Source: Stigmatella aurantiaca DW4/3-1 (GTDB lineage Bacteria; Myxococcota; Myxococcia; Myxococcales; Myxococcaceae). From it: a DNA stretch of 64,000 bases. The stretch covers positions 2,623,501 through 2,687,500 of the forward strand of contig NC_014623.1 of assembly GCF_000165485.1 (NCBI RefSeq), in the 5' to 3' direction. Of this stretch, positions 3,872 through 56,966 are shown piece after piece (the first letter of the stretch is position 1; every line of letters begins with the position of its first letter). The notes beneath the pieces are model-generated. The model saw nothing but the letters and a program-made list of their open reading frames with translations, did no database searches and was not told the origin of the DNA. The translations under genes and the position numbers were made by a program.

Positions 3872-6229
3872 TCAAGGCTTGGTCCAGGTATAGGTCGGAG
3901 AGTCGTACTGCGTGCCGTTCTTGTTGTAGGTGAACGAGTACGTGACGACCTTTCCGGCACTCAGACCGGTCACACTGGTCTCAAAGCGGGCCGCGCCGCT
4001 GTTGTACGTCATGGTGACGTTCTGCTGCCCGATGCCCGGGTAGCTGTAGTGCACGATGACGTAGCTGGCCGTGAAGCCGGTGGGCTTGAACCACAGGAGC
4101 GCCTGGGTGGCGTTGACGTTGGTGGCACCATACGTGAAGTCGGTGCCGGAGCCGCCGCCCGCCTGCGTGGTGGCCGTCGCGGTGTTGCTGGCCGCCGAGG
4201 TGTTGCCCGCCGCATCCCGTGCCCTGACGGTGTAGCTGTAGGCCGTCGAGGCCGCCAGCCCCGTGTCGCTGTACGAGTTCGTGCCCGAGGAGCCCACGGC
4301 GGAGCCGTTGCGGTAGACGTCGTAGCCGCTCACGCCCACGTTGTCCGATGACGCGTTCCAGCTCAGGTTGATCTGGCTGCTCGAGGTGGCCGTCGCCAAC
4401 AGGTTCGCGGGCGTGGTCGGCGCCTGGGTGTCCGGCGTGCCGACGCCAGTCCCCGCGAACTCGGAGACGGTCTGCCGCATGGCCGTGGCGGGGGTGCTGC
4501 CGTAGACCCTGCCGCCGGTTCCGTTGATGACGTGGGTGATTTCGCTGCCGGCCACGCCGTTCAACCAGATGGTGGTCATGTGGTGGATCTTGACGCCCGT
4601 GACGTTGGGCACCTCGATCGCGTTCTCCAGCTTGACGGGCGCGTCCCGGAAGTAGGAGTACACACCCACGCCCCACGCCTCGTGGCTGGTCACCGAGTTG
4701 GCCACCTTGTACGACGCGTACCCGTTCGCCGAGCCATTCATCCAGGAGGCCTGGTTGGGAATGTCATAGGGGATCTCGGACTGGTAGAAGTACACCCGGC
4801 CGCCGTTGCCATTCCACAGCGTCTGGTACTCGTTGTGGTGCTCATTGAACAGGCCGTAGATGGTGACGTTGCGGCCATTGACGACCAGGCCGTTCTTCGT
4901 GGGGTTGGTGGTCCAAGCGGCGCCCTCGCCGTGGTCCGCGCGCCACAGCCAGAGCTGATCGCCCACGACGTGGTTGCTGTTGATCTTGATGCCCACGTCG
5001 TTGCGGCCCACCCAGGAGCCACCGGTGCGGACGGTCAGATCGTAGAGGAAGGTGGGGTTGGCCGAGTGGTCAGCCGAGCTGCCCGTGGGGCCCACTTCCA
5101 GGATGCTGGGGGAGTTGACCGGGCCTGCCTCGAGGATCAGACCCGCGATCTTCACGCCGGGCACGTCGGCGACCGCGACGACGGGCTTGCCCACCGTCGG
5201 GGTCAGCGAGGGGACGCCGAGTCCCAGGAGGATGGTGTTGGCGTTGTTGACGCGAAGCGTGTCATTGAGCCGGTAGATGCCCGGGGTGAACAGCAGGTGC
5301 TTGCCCTGGGTCAGCGCGGTGTTGAGGGTCGCCGCGGTGTCCGTCTCCGGGCGGGCGATGTAGAACTGGGAGATGGGCAGCGACTGGCCCGGCGTGGGGC
5401 CATTGGCCCAGCTGACACCCTGGGTGTTGGTCTGCAGCGCCGGGACGAAGACGAAGTACTGCCCGCCGCTGGTGTAGAGGTAGGGCTTCTCGCGGATGAT
5501 CGGCGTCCTGTCGACGACGGTGTAGGGCGGCTCCGGGAACGTTCCAGACGGCGTGTTGACGCTGCCCACGAACACCATGTTCCACACGGCGTTGGACCAG
5601 CTCGCCCACTTGCTGTTGCGCGAGAGCCACTGCTGCTGCGAGGCGGGAACGACCGCCCCATCCACGAGGGAGTCGGCGAGGAATCCGCCGCTGGCCCAGC
5701 CGGCGTTCCAGTTCTCGTCGAACTCGAACAAGTCCAGCTCGCCCTTGACGTGCAGGCGCCGCAGGGGCGCGGCCTGGGAGACGGCGATCCGCGTGATGCC
5801 GTTGGAGGGGGTGACGGCGAAGTTCTCGAACGTCCGCCAGAAGTTGCAGGTCGAGTTGGCGGCGGGCATCCACTTGGCGTTGACGTTCACCCCGCCAATG
5901 ATGTTCACGTCGTCCGGGTTCTGCCCGAGGCCGGCCACGTGGGTGTAGAAGCCGACGTTGAAGGTGACGTTGTACGCGCCCGGCTTGAAGAACAGGGCGT
6001 AGCGCTCCGGGCCGAACTGGTTGGCCTCCTGTTGGGTGAAGATGGTGTTGGCGACGTTGTTGATGTCGCCCGCCGCCATGGTCGGGTCGAAGACGTAGAC
6101 GCGGGGCCCGAAGATGGTGCTGTTCGCCTGGGAAATCGGCGTCGCCGCTTCGGCTACCCCTGGCGAGAGGGCGCAGAGGCTCGCCGCAGCGGCCATTGCG
6201 GAAAGGGTTGAGGCCAAACGTTGACTCAT
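3872..6229 (-). CDS. Secreted beta-helix protein with FN3 and CBM56 domains
   Basis: 785 residues with a signal peptide (residues 1-28, cut after GVAEA). Residues about 35-600 form a long beta-solenoid-like domain (FGPRVYVFDPTMAAGDI near the start, later LWLWRADHGEGAAW and NEHHNEYQTLWNGNGG). The same family in Streptomyces is often named adenylyl cyclase or coagulation factor 5/8 protein, names with no support in this sequence. A fibronectin type III domain follows (about 605-690, SQINLSWNASSDNVGVSGYD), then a C-terminal domain matching CBM56, a beta-1,3-glucan binding module (TYGATNVNATQALLWFKP ... YNKNGTQYDSPTYTW). I infer an extracellular glucan-binding, possibly glucan-degrading enzyme related to GH55-like helices; catalytic residues cannot be assigned. 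A strong terminator follows the gene. Confidence 0.85.
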   Translation of the reverse strand: MSQRLASTLSAMAAAASLCALSPGVAEAATPISQANSTIFGPRVYVFDPTMAAGDINNVANTIFTQQEANQFGPERYALFFKPGAYNVTFNVGFYTHVAGLGQNPDDVNIIGGVNVNAKWMPAANSTCNFWRTFENFAVTPSNGITRIAVSQAAPLRRLHVKGELDLFEFDENWNAGWASGGFLADSLVDGAVVPASQQQWLSRNSKWASWSNAVWNMVFVGSVNTPSGTFPEPPYTVVDRTPIIREKPYLYTSGGQYFVFVPALQTNTQGVSWANGPTPGQSLPISQFYIARPETDTAATLNTALTQGKHLLFTPGIYRLNDTLRVNNANTILLGLGVPSLTPTVGKPVVAVADVPGVKIAGLILEAGPVNSPSILEVGPTGSSADHSANPTFLYDLTVRTGGSWVGRNDVGIKINSNHVVGDQLWLWRADHGEGAAWTTNPTKNGLVVNGRNVTIYGLFNEHHNEYQTLWNGNGGRVYFYQSEIPYDIPNQASWMNGSANGYASYKVANSVTSHEAWGVGVYSYFRDAPVKLENAIEVPNVTGVKIHHMTTIWLNGVAGSEITHVINGTGGRVYGSTPATAMRQTVSEFAGTGVGTPDTQAPTTPANLLATATSSSQINLSWNASSDNVGVSGYDVYRNGSAVGSSGTNSYSDTGLAASTAYSYTVRARDAAGNTSAASNTATATTQAGGGSGTDFTYGATNVNATQALLWFKPTGFTASYVIVHYSYPGIGQQNVTMTYNSGAARFETSVTGLSAGKVVTYSFTYNKNGTQYDSPTYTWTKP

Positions 6230-6618
6230 TGCCTTATCTCCTGGGGGGATGGACTGCGTGTGTGGAGGCTGTTTCAGACGGCAGGGGGGGGCGGACGCAC
6301 GTGCAGAACCCAGCCGGGCTCGCGGCCGGTAGGGGCACTGTCACCGCTGTGCACAGGAAAGGCCGCAGCCAGAACATGGCTGCGGGACACTCTCAATAAC
6401 AGATTTAGATTGGGTAATCCAGAAAGTAAAGTTTTCTTTTGTTATCACCGTCAACGCGGCAGGGCCGCCTTGTACGCAAGACACGGGTAAAGAGACAGAC
6501 GCTGGGTGTGTTGCTCGGGGATGAAAGGGAATGACACCGTGTGTCAAATCGTAACGTTTTGATTTCCAGCTGAAGACAGAGCACGGCGTGCGTGTCTGTT
6601 TGGCGGTGACAAGCCATA
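6230..6618. other. Intergenic region with AT-rich promoter zone
   Basis: About 390 bp between the beta-helix gene start and the glnS terminator. It has an unusually AT-rich patch (6390-6450, including ttttcttttgttatc) for this genome, which probably holds the promoter of the minus-strand beta-helix gene. A weak sigma70-like pair can be drawn there (tttact, 17 bp, taaatc, minus strand) but is not strong enough to call. No coding frame with a plausible start is seen. Confidence 0.4.
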
Positions 6619-48079: not shown

Positions 48080-48586
48080 TTACAGGGGACGGTGAATCCA
48101 CAGGGAGCTGCCCACGCGCGCGGCGCGGAACACCGCGAGGGGACGGGTGGCGGGGCCTCGAAGCACCTGTCCGTCCTCGCCGAAGCGGGAGCCGTGGCAC
48201 GGGCACTCCAGCAAGGCTTCCTGGGGCACGTAGGCCATGCTGCAAGCGCCGTGGGTGCAGATGCTCCACACCGCCGTGTAGCAGTCCTGGGCAGTGTGGA
48301 GGACCACCACATCCAGCAGGGCCTCGGGGATGCGCACCGCGGAGAAGCCCCCGGGTTCGAGCAGGGCGGGGTGCGCGGACAGCGGGACTTCCACCCAGCC
48401 CTCCTCGGGGCGGCCGGGGACGGTCCCGCAGCGCGTCCCCCCGTCTTCTTCTGGAGGCGAGGGCTCCGCTTCTCCGCACCCGGCACAGACCGCGGCGAGG
48501 GCGCAGGTGCCTCGCAGCAGGGTGCCGAGCGCCGTCCGGCGGTCGATCCGCTGGACCGGGGAAGGAGGAGCCCCCGCCGTGCTCAT
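48080..48586 (-). CDS. Rieske [2Fe-2S] Tat lipoprotein in a B12-controlled operon
   Basis: 168 residues. N-terminal twin-arginine signal (DRRTALGTLL) with a lipobox (VCAGC), so it should be exported folded with its cluster and anchored to a membrane. The Rieske cluster ligands are present: CTHGACSM and CPCHGSRF (C-x-H ... C-x2-H), and the domain ends with a typical beta segment (ATRPLAVFRAA). It starts with ATGA overlap behind the gene ending at 48583 and is the third gene below the B12 riboswitch. Its role may be electron transfer to a periplasmic or surface cobalamin step (inference). Confidence 0.88.
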   Translation of the reverse strand: MSTAGAPPSPVQRIDRRTALGTLLRGTCALAAVCAGCGEAEPSPPEEDGGTRCGTVPGRPEEGWVEVPLSAHPALLEPGGFSAVRIPEALLDVVVLHTAQDCYTAVWSICTHGACSMAYVPQEALLECPCHGSRFGEDGQVLRGPATRPLAVFRAARVGSSLWIHRPL

Positions 48587-49299
48587 GGAGAGGTTCCCAG
48601 CAGGTTCACGCCGTTGACGACGGCCACCGCGTCCAGATCGAACCCGCCGGAGGTGCCGCTGTAGCCGTTGGCGCCGCTGTCGCGGATGCGCACGAAGCGC
48701 GCCCGGGAGACCCCGAGCGTCGCCAGGTCGAACCCATCGCCGCCGGCCACGGCGGGATCCGTGGGGCTGATGCCGTTGTCGGGGTGGGAGAACACGGGCT
48801 TGACGCCCGCGCACCCGGGGAAGCCGCCCGCCCGGTTCGCGGCGTCGCAGGGAAACTCCCTCCACGTCACGCCGTCGTCGCTCACCGCCACCACGCCCGT
48901 CTCGGGGAAGCGTGTGAAGGCGTTCTCGAAGACGATCAGGTCCACGCCGGGGCCATCCACCACCGCGATGTCGGTGAACTCCAGGACGATGACGCCCTGG
49001 TTTCCCAAGCTGAGGACATCCAGGGAGCCGGCGCTGCTGCCTTCACCCCGGGGAGGTCCGAGCACGACGCCCGGGAACACGTCCTGGCCGAAGCCCGCGG
49101 CGGCGCCAGGTTGAAACGACACCACGCGGTCCGCGAAGGGATTGGCGGGGGGAGAAATCCCGGGATCGGGATCCGGGTTCTCCTGCTCGCCGTTGCCGTC
49201 TCCGGGCCCCGGGTCCTCGGAGCCACCGCAGGCCGTCACGCCCAGGAGCGTGGTCAGCCCCAGGAGCCCCATCCATGCTGGAAACCGAAGTGTGCTCAT
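48583..49299 (-). CDS. Surface-type lipoprotein, B12-locus cell surface protein family
   Basis: 238 residues. Lipobox VTAC (Cys24) and an acidic Pro/Gly linker. The mature domain matches a family found in B12-uptake loci and usually called cell surface protein: FADRVVSFQPGAAAGFGQD, LGPPRGEGSSAGSLDVLSLG, VDLIVFENAF, VAVSDDGVTWREFPC, ISPTDPAVAGGDGFDLATLG and RFVRIRD. A beta-sandwich binding domain is likely. It overlaps its neighbours by ATGA on both sides (49296-49299 and 48583-48586), so all three genes are coupled. Confidence 0.85.
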   Translation of the reverse strand: MSTLRFPAWMGLLGLTTLLGVTACGGSEDPGPGDGNGEQENPDPDPGISPPANPFADRVVSFQPGAAAGFGQDVFPGVVLGPPRGEGSSAGSLDVLSLGNQGVIVLEFTDIAVVDGPGVDLIVFENAFTRFPETGVVAVSDDGVTWREFPCDAANRAGGFPGCAGVKPVFSHPDNGISPTDPAVAGGDGFDLATLGVSRARFVRIRDSGANGYSGTSGGFDLDAVAVVNGVNLLGTSP

Positions 49300-50648
49300 G
49301 GCTGGTGAATGCGGACGAGCCGCTCTCCGTTCTTGTCGGACACGCCCACCAACAGATCACCCCCAAGCTCCGTGAGCGACTGGAGCTGGGTGCAACTGTC
49401 GACGAACTTCAGCACGGGGGTGGTGGCCCCGGGGGTCACGGTCTGCGGGGTGCCGCTGCTGAGGGCCAGCTCGATGCGCGAGACGTCCGTGTAGACCGGA
49501 GGCCAGCCCGAGTCATCGCCGAGCAGCAGCGCCACGCCGTCGCCGAAGGCCGCCACGTTGAGGATGCTGCTGCCGGGGGTGAGCTCGGTGGCGTCCGCGA
49601 GGCTGAAGGGCACGTGGCTGGTGAGCGCGGGCTGATAGAGGGACGGAGCCGCGGCGCGCAGGCGGTTGGTGAAGACCGTCCCGTCGAAGTAGCCCAGCAC
49701 GGCCACGCCATTCTCCGTCACCGCCGTGTACCCACTGGAGGCCTCCCAGGCCGGGTCAAACGTGGCGAGCAACGAGGTGGTGGGCGGATCCGTCTGGGGT
49801 TGCAAGGCGTAGATGCCCACCTCCGGCGGGGAACTGCCCAGCCCCAGGCCATTGATGAGGAAGGCATTGGGGAGCGCGGCGACGGTGTAATTGCCGGGCG
49901 CGGAGAGGTACTGAAGGTGGGTGGGCGCGGTGGTCTGGAAGAGGGAGACGTAGCCGGGGAAGTTGGCGCCGGACTTTGTGTAGCCGCTGAGCAGCCGCGA
50001 GCCATCGTTCACCAGGTACCCGCCCAGGAAGAACGAGCCGCCACGGTCCGAGGGCTCGATGACCGAGAACAGGGCCTGGGTGCTGGGCTGGAGCGAGGGC
50101 CACGTTCCCAGGGGATACACGTTCTGGTCCGCGCCGCTCAGGCCATAGACGGTGTACAGCGGCCCGGGGCCCACGGCCGTCACCGCGATGATGCCCGCGG
50201 GAAGCCCGGAGGATTCCGTGGCGGTGAAGCCGGCTTGCAACTGGAGGGTGCCGAGCTTTGGGTCGTGCGGCGCCACCGCGCACGGGTCTGTTCCTCCGTC
50301 CGTGCCGCCATCGGTGTCCGGCCCCGCATCCGTGCCGCCATCGGTGTCCGGCCCTGCGTCGGTGCCGCCATCGGTGTCTGGCCCCGCATCCGTGCCGCCG
50401 TCGGTGTTGGGGCCCGCGTCGGTGCCCGGGCCCGCATCCGGGGGGGCTCCGCCGGGGTACAGGGGGACACACTTCTCTTCCCGGCAGACATAGGGATTGC
50501 TCGGGTCACTGCGCTCGGGCGTGTCCTGGCAATCAGAGGAATGGGTGCACTCCTCACCGCAGCCGGTGCTCAGGCTGGCGAGGGCGAGGGTGCCAAGGAC
50601 AGGCACCCACCGCGTCCACTTCGTCCCGCGTCTCATCGTGTTCTTCAT
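49296..50648 (-). CDS. B12-riboswitch-controlled lipoprotein with repeat linker and propeller-like body
   Basis: 450 residues from ATG 50648; TTG 50657 and ATG 50636 are alternatives. Lipobox STGC, a Cys-rich segment (CTHSSDCQDTP, CREEKC), then a linker of (TDAGPDTDGG) repeats and a 330-residue body rich in beta strands (PLYTVYGLSGADQNVYPLG, GSFFLGGYLVNDGSRLLSGY, NGVAVLGYFDGTVFTN). The body could be a beta-propeller, as in the Bacteroides surface B12-binding lipoprotein BtuG, but no motif proves this. It is the first gene behind the cobalamin riboswitch. Confidence 0.8.
   Translation of the reverse strand: MKNTMRRGTKWTRWVPVLGTLALASLSTGCGEECTHSSDCQDTPERSDPSNPYVCREEKCVPLYPGGAPPDAGPGTDAGPNTDGGTDAGPDTDGGTDAGPDTDGGTDAGPDTDGGTDGGTDPCAVAPHDPKLGTLQLQAGFTATESSGLPAGIIAVTAVGPGPLYTVYGLSGADQNVYPLGTWPSLQPSTQALFSVIEPSDRGGSFFLGGYLVNDGSRLLSGYTKSGANFPGYVSLFQTTAPTHLQYLSAPGNYTVAALPNAFLINGLGLGSSPPEVGIYALQPQTDPPTTSLLATFDPAWEASSGYTAVTENGVAVLGYFDGTVFTNRLRAAAPSLYQPALTSHVPFSLADATELTPGSSILNVAAFGDGVALLLGDDSGWPPVYTDVSRIELALSSGTPQTVTPGATTPVLKFVDSCTQLQSLTELGGDLLVGVSDKNGERLVRIHQP
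50301..50420 (-). repeat. 30-bp tandem coding repeat (4 copies)
   Basis: Four 30-bp units (50301, 50331, 50361, 50391), nearly identical in the first three and drifting in the last. Each encodes ten residues, TDAGPDTDGG, in the linker of the B12-regulated lipoprotein. This in-frame minisatellite should vary in copy number between strains. Confidence 0.9.
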
Positions 50649-50789
50649 GGGCCTCAACGCTCCTTCGCCCCCTCCGGGCGAATGACCTTCGAGGGGCGTG
50701 GGCGGAGACGCTCCGGGACGGTCCGGAAGACGCCTCCGTCACCTCCCCTCGGAGGTTTCGGTGGTGGCCGTGCCATTGCGGGGCACGGG

Positions 50790-50955
50790 ACCTCGGCAGG
50801 TCTTCGGACTCACAGGCGCGGAGGGTTCGGGGGAATCCTCCTTCTACTGGCTGTCGCTTCCCAGCCCCGGGAGGGGCCAGTGCTTGCGTGGACGGCGGTC
50901 GTTCCTGTTCACCGCTGCGGGGCAGTCCCGGAATCACACCGGGTTCCCTTGAGCG
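50790..50955 (-). promoter_or_regulatory. Cobalamin (B12) riboswitch
   Basis: Read on the minus strand, the conserved parts occur in order: aagggaacccggtgtgattc (50950-50931), then ccgggactgccccgcagcgg (50930-50911), gcactggcccctcccggggc, tgggaagcgacagccagtag and the B12 box gtgagtccgaagacctgccg (50814-50795). This is the aptamer of adenosyl- or methylcobalamin riboswitches. It lies about 140 bases before the start of the lipoprotein gene at 50648. Its downstream expression platform includes a ccgtgcc/ggcacgg stem (50788-50768) and a ttcgccc/gggcgaa stem (50682-50664) next to the aaggag ribosome site, so control at translation start is plausible. Confidence 0.93.
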
Positions 50956-54336: not shown

Positions 54337-56658
54337 TCAGCTCGCCGGCAACGAAGGCTCTTCCGGCGCGGAGGCTTTCGTGTCCGGCCCGGCAGAGGCG
54401 GGCTCTTCATTGCCCAGCGGGAGGTAGCGGCCCGCGGAAGGGGACCACTCCAGCAGCTCCGAGTGGGCCACGTCGTAGAACCATGCGTGGATGCGGATCT
54501 CCCCTGTCTCCGCTTTCTCCCGCATCCCCTCGTAGCTGAGGATGTTTTCGACCTGGGCCAACGCGCTCTGCTGGGCGGCTTCCTCGGCGGTGCAGTCCTC
54601 GGACAGGTGCTCCAGGACCGGCTCGGCCTCCTTGAGCCAGGCCGCCACGCTGGGCAGCCCTTGCGGTGGCTTCCGGGCGATCAAGGCATTCATGGCCCCG
54701 CAGGCGGAGTGGCCGCAGACGATGATGTCCGTCACCTTCAGCACGTTCACCGCATACTCGACGGCGCTGGCCACCGCGACCGAGGCGGGCGAGCTCGCGG
54801 GGGGCACCAGGTTCCCCACGTTGCGCACGATGAAGAGTTCCCCGGGATCCGTGGAGGTGATGAGGTTGGGGTTGATGCGGCTGTCGGCGCAGGTGATGAG
54901 CAGGGTGTGGGGTGCCTGCCCATTGGCGAGCCGGTCGAAGAGCGGCCCGTACCGCCGCAACCCATCCTGGCGGAACCGCTCGACGCCGTGGACCAGGCGC
55001 TCCCGTGCCGAGTGGTAGGCCGTCCCCCGGAGGATGGTGACCACGTCCGACTCGGTGAGGGCAAAGAGCGGCTCCAGCGCCTCGCCGTGTGCCTGGCTGG
55101 TGAGCGCCCGCTGAAACTCGGGCTGGAGCCCCTGGAGCACGACCTTGAGGTCCGCATTCAGCAGATCGTTCACGAGGCCGATGAGCATGTCCGCGCCCGA
55201 GGAATCCACGGCCGTCACCGCCGACATGTCGATGACCACGCCGCGCGACCGGTCCAGCTTGGCGGACTGGGTCCGCAGCGTGTCCAGCTTCGAGGAGGAC
55301 ATGAACGTCAGGGGGCCGCTGAGCACGACGCGGTAGGCGCCGGGCGTCTCCCGCTGGAGCAGACCGCCCTGCGTCTGGCCGAGCCGCACCGCGGCGATGG
55401 CCAGTGCCGCGAGGATGCCTGCCTGCACGCCCACGGTGAAGTCCACCAGCACGATGACCATGAAGGTGATGGCGTAGACGGCCGCATCCATCCGGGAGAC
55501 CTTCCACAAGGCCATCAGGTCGTGCGGGTGCAGCATGCGCAGCGCCAGGAAGAGCAGCACGCCCGCCAGCGAGGCGATGGGGATGTAGCCCATCACCGGG
55601 GCGAAGAGCACGAGCACGGTCAGCAGCACGAGCGAGTGGATGATGGCCGCGCGCCGGGTGCGTGCCCCCGCCAGCGCATTCGTCGCGGAGCGCACGGTGA
55701 CGCCCGTAATGGGGATGCCACCAAACAGCGCCACCACCGCATTGCCGAGCCCTTGGCCCACCATCTCCTGGTCGGGATCATGGCGCAGGTCCTTGACGAG
55801 CCGGTTCACGGCCGCTCCCGTCAGCAGGGCCTCCAGCGAGGCGAGCGCATAGACGATGAGGGCGGTGCCCAGCAGGGGCATCAGGTTTCCCTCGGGCAAC
55901 TGGGGCAGCTGGGGGACGGGGAGGAAACGGGACATCTCCCCCACTGTTGCGGCCCCCAGCCCGAGCGCGGCGTTGAGCACCGTGGCGGCGATGACCGCGA
56001 TGAGCGGCGCGGGCACCTGGGGCCACACGCGAGGCAGCAACAGGCTGATGGCCAGCGTCAGCGAGGCCAGGAGGAGCGCGGCGGGTTGGAAATCGTGGAT
56101 GAGCTGGCCCAGATGCGTGAGCACCTCCATCACATGCCCCTGATCGGGCGACGCCAACCCGAAGGCCCGGGGAAGCTGCCAGAGGAAGATGATGGCCCCG
56201 ATGCCGGCCGTGAAGCCGGACACCACCGGCAGGGGAATGAAGCGGATGATCTTCCCCAGCCCCAGCACGCCGGTGAGGATCTGGAGGAGGCCCACCACCA
56301 GGCCAATGAGGAGAACCCCCCTCAGCCCATACTGCTGCAAGGCGTTGGCGATGAGGACCGACATGGCCACGGCCGGGCCGCTGACCGTCAGGGGCGTGCC
56401 ACCGAACAGTGAGCACATCACCCCCGCGAGGATGGCCGTCACCAGGCCCATCTGGGGCGAGATGCCCGAGGCCAGCGCGATGGACAGGGAGAAGGGGATG
56501 GCGAGGGCGGCCACGGTGAACCCCGCCCGCGTGTCCTCCTTCAGGTACTTCGACGAAAAGAGCGCCTTCCACTCCGGCAGCAGGGACCGGATGCCGAGAT
56601 CGAAGCGCATCTTGGAGGCGGGCAGGATCCGTCGCTCAGCGTGCTCTTGCTGCCGCAT
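54337..56658 (-). CDS. SulP-family anion transporter fused to STAS and beta-carbonic anhydrase
   Basis: 773 residues. A SulP transporter core (about 40-420; SGISPQMGLVTAILAGVMCS, GGTPLTVSGPAVAMSVL), a STAS domain (about 445-545, VVIDMSAVTAVDSSGADML), and a C-terminal beta-carbonic anhydrase (about 560-740) with the zinc ligands in CADSR and CGHSACGAM and the sequence FIVRNVGNL. Such fusions are thought to couple bicarbonate uptake to CO2 hydration. The ATG at 56658 is preferred over 56703, since the upstream palindrome then lies outside the coding region. The gene converges with the FolB-cupin gene. Confidence 0.9.
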   Translation of the reverse strand: MRQQEHAERRILPASKMRFDLGIRSLLPEWKALFSSKYLKEDTRAGFTVAALAIPFSLSIALASGISPQMGLVTAILAGVMCSLFGGTPLTVSGPAVAMSVLIANALQQYGLRGVLLIGLVVGLLQILTGVLGLGKIIRFIPLPVVSGFTAGIGAIIFLWQLPRAFGLASPDQGHVMEVLTHLGQLIHDFQPAALLLASLTLAISLLLPRVWPQVPAPLIAVIAATVLNAALGLGAATVGEMSRFLPVPQLPQLPEGNLMPLLGTALIVYALASLEALLTGAAVNRLVKDLRHDPDQEMVGQGLGNAVVALFGGIPITGVTVRSATNALAGARTRRAAIIHSLVLLTVLVLFAPVMGYIPIASLAGVLLFLALRMLHPHDLMALWKVSRMDAAVYAITFMVIVLVDFTVGVQAGILAALAIAAVRLGQTQGGLLQRETPGAYRVVLSGPLTFMSSSKLDTLRTQSAKLDRSRGVVIDMSAVTAVDSSGADMLIGLVNDLLNADLKVVLQGLQPEFQRALTSQAHGEALEPLFALTESDVVTILRGTAYHSARERLVHGVERFRQDGLRRYGPLFDRLANGQAPHTLLITCADSRINPNLITSTDPGELFIVRNVGNLVPPASSPASVAVASAVEYAVNVLKVTDIIVCGHSACGAMNALIARKPPQGLPSVAAWLKEAEPVLEHLSEDCTAEEAAQQSALAQVENILSYEGMREKAETGEIRIHAWFYDVAHSELLEWSPSAGRYLPLGNEEPASAGPDTKASAPEEPSLPAS

Positions 56659-56966
56659 GAAAATAAAACCCCTCTGCTGGATATGAGTGGGGAGACTTGG
56701 CATGCCAAGTCACGGCGGCCACTGAGAGACAGGGCCTCGCATGGCCGGACGTTGCTACCGGTATAACCACGGTGGAGTCCCCTGGAACCGCCTCCGCTCC
56801 GGGGTTTGAATTTTCCGGGTCCAATCCCGGACAGTCCCGGCGCAGCCTTCCTGGATTTATTTGAATCCATTCAAAGTGATGCCGTGCGGCAACTTGGCGC
56901 CGCTCGCCCAGACAATCCGTGAGGTTCAGCGAAGTAGGTCAGACCTACCCCACTGGGAGCCAGTTC
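56659..56966. other. Divergent promoter region between SulP-CA and the cysteine peptidase
   Basis: About 300 bp serving two divergent genes. It contains the 18-bp palindrome at 56694-56711 and an AT-rich patch at 56805-56880 (ttgaattttccgggtccaat, tttatttgaatccattcaaa). I see no additional gene. Confidence 0.5.
56694..56711. promoter_or_regulatory. 18-bp perfect palindrome upstream of the SulP-CA gene
   Basis: gacttggcatgccaagtc is a perfect inverted repeat, 36 bp before the preferred start codon of the minus-strand gene. Such a dyad is typical of a dimeric repressor or activator site; the regulator is unknown. Confidence 0.55.

Follow-up and report, generated by a model that had tools for sequence, protein, structure and literature searches.

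The 64-kb window analysed here (64,000 nucleotides, 2.62-2.69 Mb of the Stigmatella aurantiaca DW4/3-1 genome; all coordinates are positions in this window unless noted) carries on its minus strand a cobalamin riboswitch and, 3' of it, three genes that we call A, B and C, with an ATGA overlap at each of the two junctions. They encode a lipoprotein with a predicted beta-propeller, a lipoprotein predicted to fold like known B12 binders, and a Rieske [2Fe-2S] lipoprotein. Most likely the trio is an accessory surface-capture part of a BtuBFC import system for vitamin B12 (cobamide). An initial annotation of the stretch had placed a cobalamin aptamer at 50955-50790 and three ATGA-joined genes on this strand, and both observations were borne out. 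Using cmscan, we found that the Rfam family RF00174 matches over its full length (model positions 1-189 of 189) at 50995-50778, slightly longer than first proposed, scoring 89.2 bits (E 1e-20) against a gathering cut-off of 31.5 bits, and the two overlaps are real. This aptamer is one of four cobalamin riboswitches in the whole 10.26-Mb single-contig genome.

Three hairpins follow in the leader, all on the minus strand and assessed in an alignment of 19 relatives. The first (50768-50788, CCGTGCC...GGCACGG) overlaps the end of the aptamer and is paired in 99% of alignment cells, with two pairs changed on both sides. The second (50741-50756, ACCTCC-GAGG-GGAGGT) has an invariant CTCCGAGGGGAG core and covarying outer pairs, is paired in 98% of cells with two-sided changes, and may be the P13/L13 kissing-loop stem of the riboswitch. 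The third (50665-50681) lies directly 5' of the ribosome-binding region of gene A and has a conserved CCCGnGGGGG core that is present in the minimum free energy structure; its pairing in the alignment is weak (65% of cells), making it a weak candidate for the expression platform. No sigma-70 promoter or intrinsic terminator was found above chance on the relevant strand of the leader. Given the lack of a terminator there, control of the operon at translation seems more likely than control by termination.

Predicted folds and export signals of the three proteins

Gene B (48583-49299, minus strand) encodes 238 amino acids with a lipobox ending at Cys24 (V-T-A-C24), followed by a domain (core 48586-49152) for which AlphaFold2 gives a model with a predicted local distance difference test score (pLDDT) of 95.3. 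When this model was compared with 350,542 PDB chains, the best match was the B12-binding lipoprotein BtuH2 (7biz, region 315-592; Z 14.0, 3.0 A over 154 residues) and the second was the BtuH domain of BtuG1 (8blw, Z 12.5), with PAPP-A and CBM32-type sugar modules ranking third and below (Z 10.1 and lower). Foldseek ranked the same two structures first. The matched C-terminal domain of BtuH2 (BT_1956 of Bacteroides thetaiotaomicron) binds B12, and in 2022 its fold was without known structural relatives (PMC8941943). Like BtuH2 and the BtuH domain of BtuG1, B is a lipoprotein encoded at cobalamin-riboswitch loci with BtuB; unlike BtuH2, it is ~190 residues long and lacks PKD/Ig domains, comes from the phylum Myxococcota and has no detectable sequence match in PDB profile searches. 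These searches gave nothing up to E 5 and E 10, although their filters may lose remote matches, so homology rests on the predicted structure, from which B is likely a remote BtuH-fold relative. Fold and context together lead us to infer that B binds cobamide. B12 is contacted in BtuH2 by Gln333, Asn399, Phe401, His476, Tyr510, Trp511 and Trp577, with Asn399, Gln333 and Phe401 touching its nucleotide loop. The invariant motifs V-F-E-N77-x-F79 and G-F-G-Q23 of the B relatives place N77-x-F79 and Q23 at roughly the spacing of BtuH2 Asn399-x-Phe401 and Gln333, a correspondence that is only suggestive.

Two other families were considered for B. BtuJ, a B12 binder with a DUF4465 domain (PMC13398666, PMC12751083), is likewise a secreted jelly-roll protein from riboswitch loci; this assignment was rejected because neither B nor its distant relatives match Pfam DUF4465 and the nearest solved folds are BtuH domains. 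The sole named family touched by B was the LIC_13355 family lipoprotein NF033170 (E 5.6e-7); at 29 bits B falls below the 120-bit cut-off, and a distant B relative from another Myxococcota locus (L122) reached 38.5 bits. A tblastn search with a distant B against plasmids returned no match.

Gene A (49296-50648, minus strand) agrees with the initial description of a lipoprotein with a repeat linker and a beta-rich body. Its 450 amino acids comprise a lipobox ending at Cys30 (L-S-T-G-C30), an Asp/Gly/Thr linker encoded by tandem repeats (50293-50438, minus strand; Tandem Repeats Finder periods of 18, 30 and 60 nt) and a predicted six-bladed beta-propeller (core 49299-50288). The AlphaFold2 model, built with relatives, has a mean pLDDT of 95.9 and a predicted template modelling score of 0.93; six four-stranded blades were counted by hand from the DSSP assignment, and the closest folds are mostly six-bladed. 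Many propellers were matched at Z 16-19 in the PDB fold search, and these matches tell the fold of the model, not its function. Sequence searches of Pfam, NCBIfam and PDB assigned A to no family, and a search of a viral structure library gave generic propellers and nothing specific.

A was also compared with BtuG. BtuG2, the propeller lid of BtuB in Bacteroides, is also a lipoprotein beta-propeller found with BtuB-type uptake genes and a cobalamin riboswitch, but it has seven blades (PMC10404256), whereas A is predicted to have six and has generic propeller matches only. We therefore rejected the identification of A as BtuG. BtuG was not among the matches listed for A in the PDB fold search, an absence that is not evidence in itself. 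A closer BtuG counterpart may be the lipoprotein encoded next to btuB (positions 4718-6310 of locus L037); a mixed profile that included btuB-linked propeller lipoproteins matched the BtuBG chain 8okv_B at E 0.45, which is not significant. Of the two lipoproteins, for which a comparison with BtuG and related B12 binders had been proposed, B is modelled in the fold of BtuH2 and of the BtuG1 BtuH domain and A falls outside BtuG; both folds fit ligand binding. A lone paralogue of A (E 5e-87) lies at 0.477 Mb of the same genome (L141, 5932-7326), with no adjoining B, C or riboswitch.

Gene C (48080-48586, minus strand) encodes 168 amino acids and is, as first described, a Rieske protein whose signal region combines twin arginines with a lipobox. 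It matches PF00355 with E 4e-11 (43 bits against a cut-off of 20.3), the cluster ligands being C110-x-H112 and C128-x2-H131. Across 17 relatives R16-R17 and the lipobox residues C37-G38 are invariant and the CxH and CPCHGS ligand motifs are kept, so that by its signal motifs C is predicted to be a lipoprotein exported by the twin-arginine translocation (Tat) pathway. C shares the [2Fe-2S] ligand motifs and disulphide cysteines (CTHGxC, CPCHGS) with the Rieske subunits of the cytochrome b6f and bc1 complexes (PetC, QcrA); it differs from them in being lipobox-anchored and encoded in a B12 operon, and no cytochrome b gene is present at the locus. A score of 55.4 bits against an equivalog cut-off of 250 likewise led us to reject C as a bc1/b6f subunit. 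Judged from the motifs, its cluster is of the high-potential bc type.

Linkage to B12 transport genes and probable need for the vitamin

The initial annotation had described the operon as being without a transporter. This is true of the locus itself, where no transporter gene adjoins the trio, which is flanked upstream by a LysR-type gene and downstream by an RsmB-like methyltransferase gene that converges on it. It does not characterise the system, because in relatives the trio comes directly after a btuB operon or is joined to it. At 9.06 Mb of the S. aurantiaca genome, another cobalamin riboswitch precedes genes for a TonB-dependent receptor (BtuB), a STIG1-plus-propeller-like lipoprotein, a BtuF-like periplasmic binding protein and a BtuC-like FecCD permease, the BtuB, BtuF and BtuC identities being based on Pfam. 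The receptor is therefore unlinked but present, and with the transport operon at another locus in this genus, the lack of a transporter beside the trio is a local rearrangement. Together with the B12-binder fold of B, this operon supports the earlier suggestion of a surface B12-capture module that works with an unlinked receptor. None of the three outcomes named beforehand as refuting that suggestion came about: Rfam recognised the riboswitch, the trio and riboswitch are conserved together, and the predicted folds are compatible with binding a ligand.

Among 58 genomes of the family Myxococcaceae, 37 contain B. Conservation of the trio with its riboswitch in other myxobacteria had been put forward as a check. 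The count took in every A copy that has B behind it and 1.1 kb or more of upstream sequence, and 42 of 42 such A-B pairs were found to have a cobalamin riboswitch (35 by pattern and 7 by Rfam). The regular expression used as the pattern found 29 of 32 known sites and missed second-copy variants; Rfam recovered all seven of the A-B sites that it had missed. Corallococcus and Myxococcus also contain three additional A copies that lack B, and none of these has its own riboswitch. The usual order in Myxococcus, Citreicoccus and Pyxidicoccus is riboswitch, BtuB, propeller lipoprotein, BtuF, BtuC, second riboswitch, A, B and C. In the metagenome-assembled genome (MAG) SSF41, A-B is directly followed by BtuB, a lipoprotein and BtuF, and Corallococcus has two riboswitch-A-B units 3' of BtuB. 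Recurring in this way throughout the Myxococcaceae, the arrangement is more than chance. The Corallococcus-type loci (L042, L047, L063 and L066-L070) hold three cobalamin riboswitches within ~8 kb, with BtuB and each of the A-B copies preceded by its own.

The Rieske subfamily was found only beside B. When the 58 genomes were searched with a C profile, all 24 of the 24 matches of at least 140 bits directly adjoin B, and the next ones score 95 bits or less; the profile was built from B-adjacent C proteins, and the score gap is nonetheless clear. A scan of genome contigs for B, using a profile, returned 74 loci, of which almost all bear the label Myxococcota or deltaproteobacteria. Beyond the Myxococcaceae, other Myxococcota encode B under cobalamin riboswitches with other lipoproteins, among them propellers (loci L121, L122 and L131). 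BtuB is adjacent to or near B in L122 and L131, and Rieske proteins occur with B outside the family in L097, L098 and L104. A nameless lipoprotein family with repeats of ~100 residues ending in GCGGFSWT also adjoins B under cobalamin riboswitches (L096, L097, L098, L107, L120 and L123), and no convincing Pfam family was found in the three members scanned. The myxobacterial locus, or a gene of it, also turned up in L078 (titled Comamonas sp. KCTC 72670) and L116 (a Bifidobacterium breve MAG), where either the labels look wrong or the assemblies look contaminated.

The gene content of S. aurantiaca also bears on its need for the vitamin. The genome encodes a cobalamin-dependent MetH (1186 bits) and methylmalonyl-CoA mutase, and searches for CbiD and CobS that were positive in control genomes gave no match in it. 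CobS is needed for the last steps of B12 assembly. Behind the cobalamin riboswitch at 1.916 Mb, metE survives only as fragments that lie in different frames (pieces 40-99 and 243-331 of 754); with MetH intact, this broken gene (1.915-1.916 Mb; L036, 7000-8131) is what remains of a B12-independent methionine synthase that has been lost. Because B12-dependent enzymes are present, CobS and CbiD were not found and metE is a relic, the organism probably depends on imported B12, as far as gene content can tell.

Two further observations concern other genes. At 1.946 Mb (L035, 3571-8309), the cobalamin riboswitch that scores highest in the genome (101 bits) precedes an operon in which two class-III-aminotransferase-like genes enclose an aldehyde-dehydrogenase-like gene, and we know of no such operon described as B12 regulated. 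Within the window, a SulP-like anion transporter with an in-frame carbonic-anhydrase-like domain is encoded at 54337-56703 on the minus strand.

A probable surface-capture function for the trio

The riboswitch, its presence before every counted A-B pair, the co-location with BtuB, BtuF and BtuC, the predicted B fold and A propeller, and the probable need for B12 argue together for cobamide capture at the cell surface. Under this reading, low intracellular cobalamin would permit expression of the operon through the riboswitch, and A and B would be exported as lipoproteins, probably to the outer membrane. B would capture cobamide with its BtuH-kind jelly-roll domain, and A, whose six-bladed propeller is tethered by a flexible linker, could act as a second binder, lid or dock. 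The cobamide would then pass to BtuB and on to BtuF and BtuC, the products of the operon at 9.06 Mb. C would be exported by Tat already folded around its Rieske cluster, and this route fits a folded iron-sulphur protein. Once exported, it might carry out redox chemistry on the captured cobamide or on a partner, for example between Co(III) and Co(II), loosening the upper ligand.

Several points weigh against this reading. The blade number separates A from BtuG, and any cobamide role for A is putative; B and BtuH2 show no similarity in sequence profiles up to E 10. Signal motifs are the basis for placing A and B at the surface. The Rieske gene is absent from about a third of the relatives having B, so C is not essential to the module. 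The CobS-bearing relatives tested (8 of 58) keep B too, and thus B does not track an inability to make B12.

The alternative that survives best is that the lipoproteins store or sequester B12 outside the cell, for instance in fruiting bodies or on vesicles (the latter in the manner of BtuJ), more than they feed one receptor. B. thetaiotaomicron offers a precedent, in that its B12-binding lipoproteins, BtuJ included, act on extracellular vesicles (PMC12751083), and the tandem extra riboswitch-A-B copies of Corallococcus suggest abundant surface binders. Storage would itself amount to capturing B12 and so overlaps with the main reading, but the strong co-location with the btuB operon speaks against it as the chief function, and we regard it as improbable. 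Less probable again is a B12-repressed electron-transfer chain, raised as an alternative in the initial annotation, in which C would take the leading part, standing in for a B12-dependent function whenever the vitamin is scarce, with the lipoproteins docking it. Repression by B12 is the usual action of cobalamin riboswitches, and the intact high-potential CTHxxC/CPCHGS cluster motif with invariant Tat arginines and lipobox would suit such a role; however, many genomes have riboswitch-led A-B pairs without C, high-scoring C was never found without B, the neighbours are B12 transport genes with no cytochromes or oxidases, and B folds like B12 binders. Finally, a different ligand (heme, a corrinoid precursor or a metal chelate), with the riboswitch merely coupling the operon to methionine or B12 status, is the least credible of the three: the ligands of A and B are putative, and the B fold falls in a broad jelly-roll/CBM32-like group whose sugar binders match it at Z 8-10, but both top matches for B are B12 binders standing clear of the sugar-binding modules, and the linkage to BtuB, BtuF and BtuC points the same way.

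Within a surface-capture function, the Rieske subfamily tied to B is the novel component. The potential of high-potential bc-type Rieske clusters lies near that of the aquocob(III)/cob(II)alamin couple and is too high for reducing cyanocobalamin. An exchange of electrons between C and hydroxocobalamin is therefore possible. A more specific proposal, that C is an extracytoplasmic redox partner that shifts the cobalt oxidation state of cobamide held on B or A, either in the periplasm or at the cell surface, and so frees the upper ligand before or during BtuB transport, is offered as a tentative idea that we think rather unlikely to be correct as it stands. We know of no described B12 importer with a redox step. 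In a search of open-access papers, Rieske proteins came up together with cobalamin riboswitches or BtuB in genome surveys only, and no open-access work on B12 uptake in Myxococcus was found.

Lipoprotein-assisted B12 uptake by BtuB, BtuG and BtuH has been worked out in gut Bacteroides (PMC10404256, PMC8941943), and the BtuBG arrangement was judged by the authors of that work to be probably exclusive to Bacteroidetes. By analogy, the trio most likely works in a similar way, as a BtuG/BtuH-like strategy outside that group. The BtuH-like fold predicted in riboswitch loci across Myxococcota suggests that B12 capture at the surface is more widespread as a strategy, and the Rieske subfamily tied to it prompts the question of whether B12 uptake can include a redox step outside the cytoplasm. 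For these soil predators, with their probable dependence on B12, the trio would provide a concrete uptake module.

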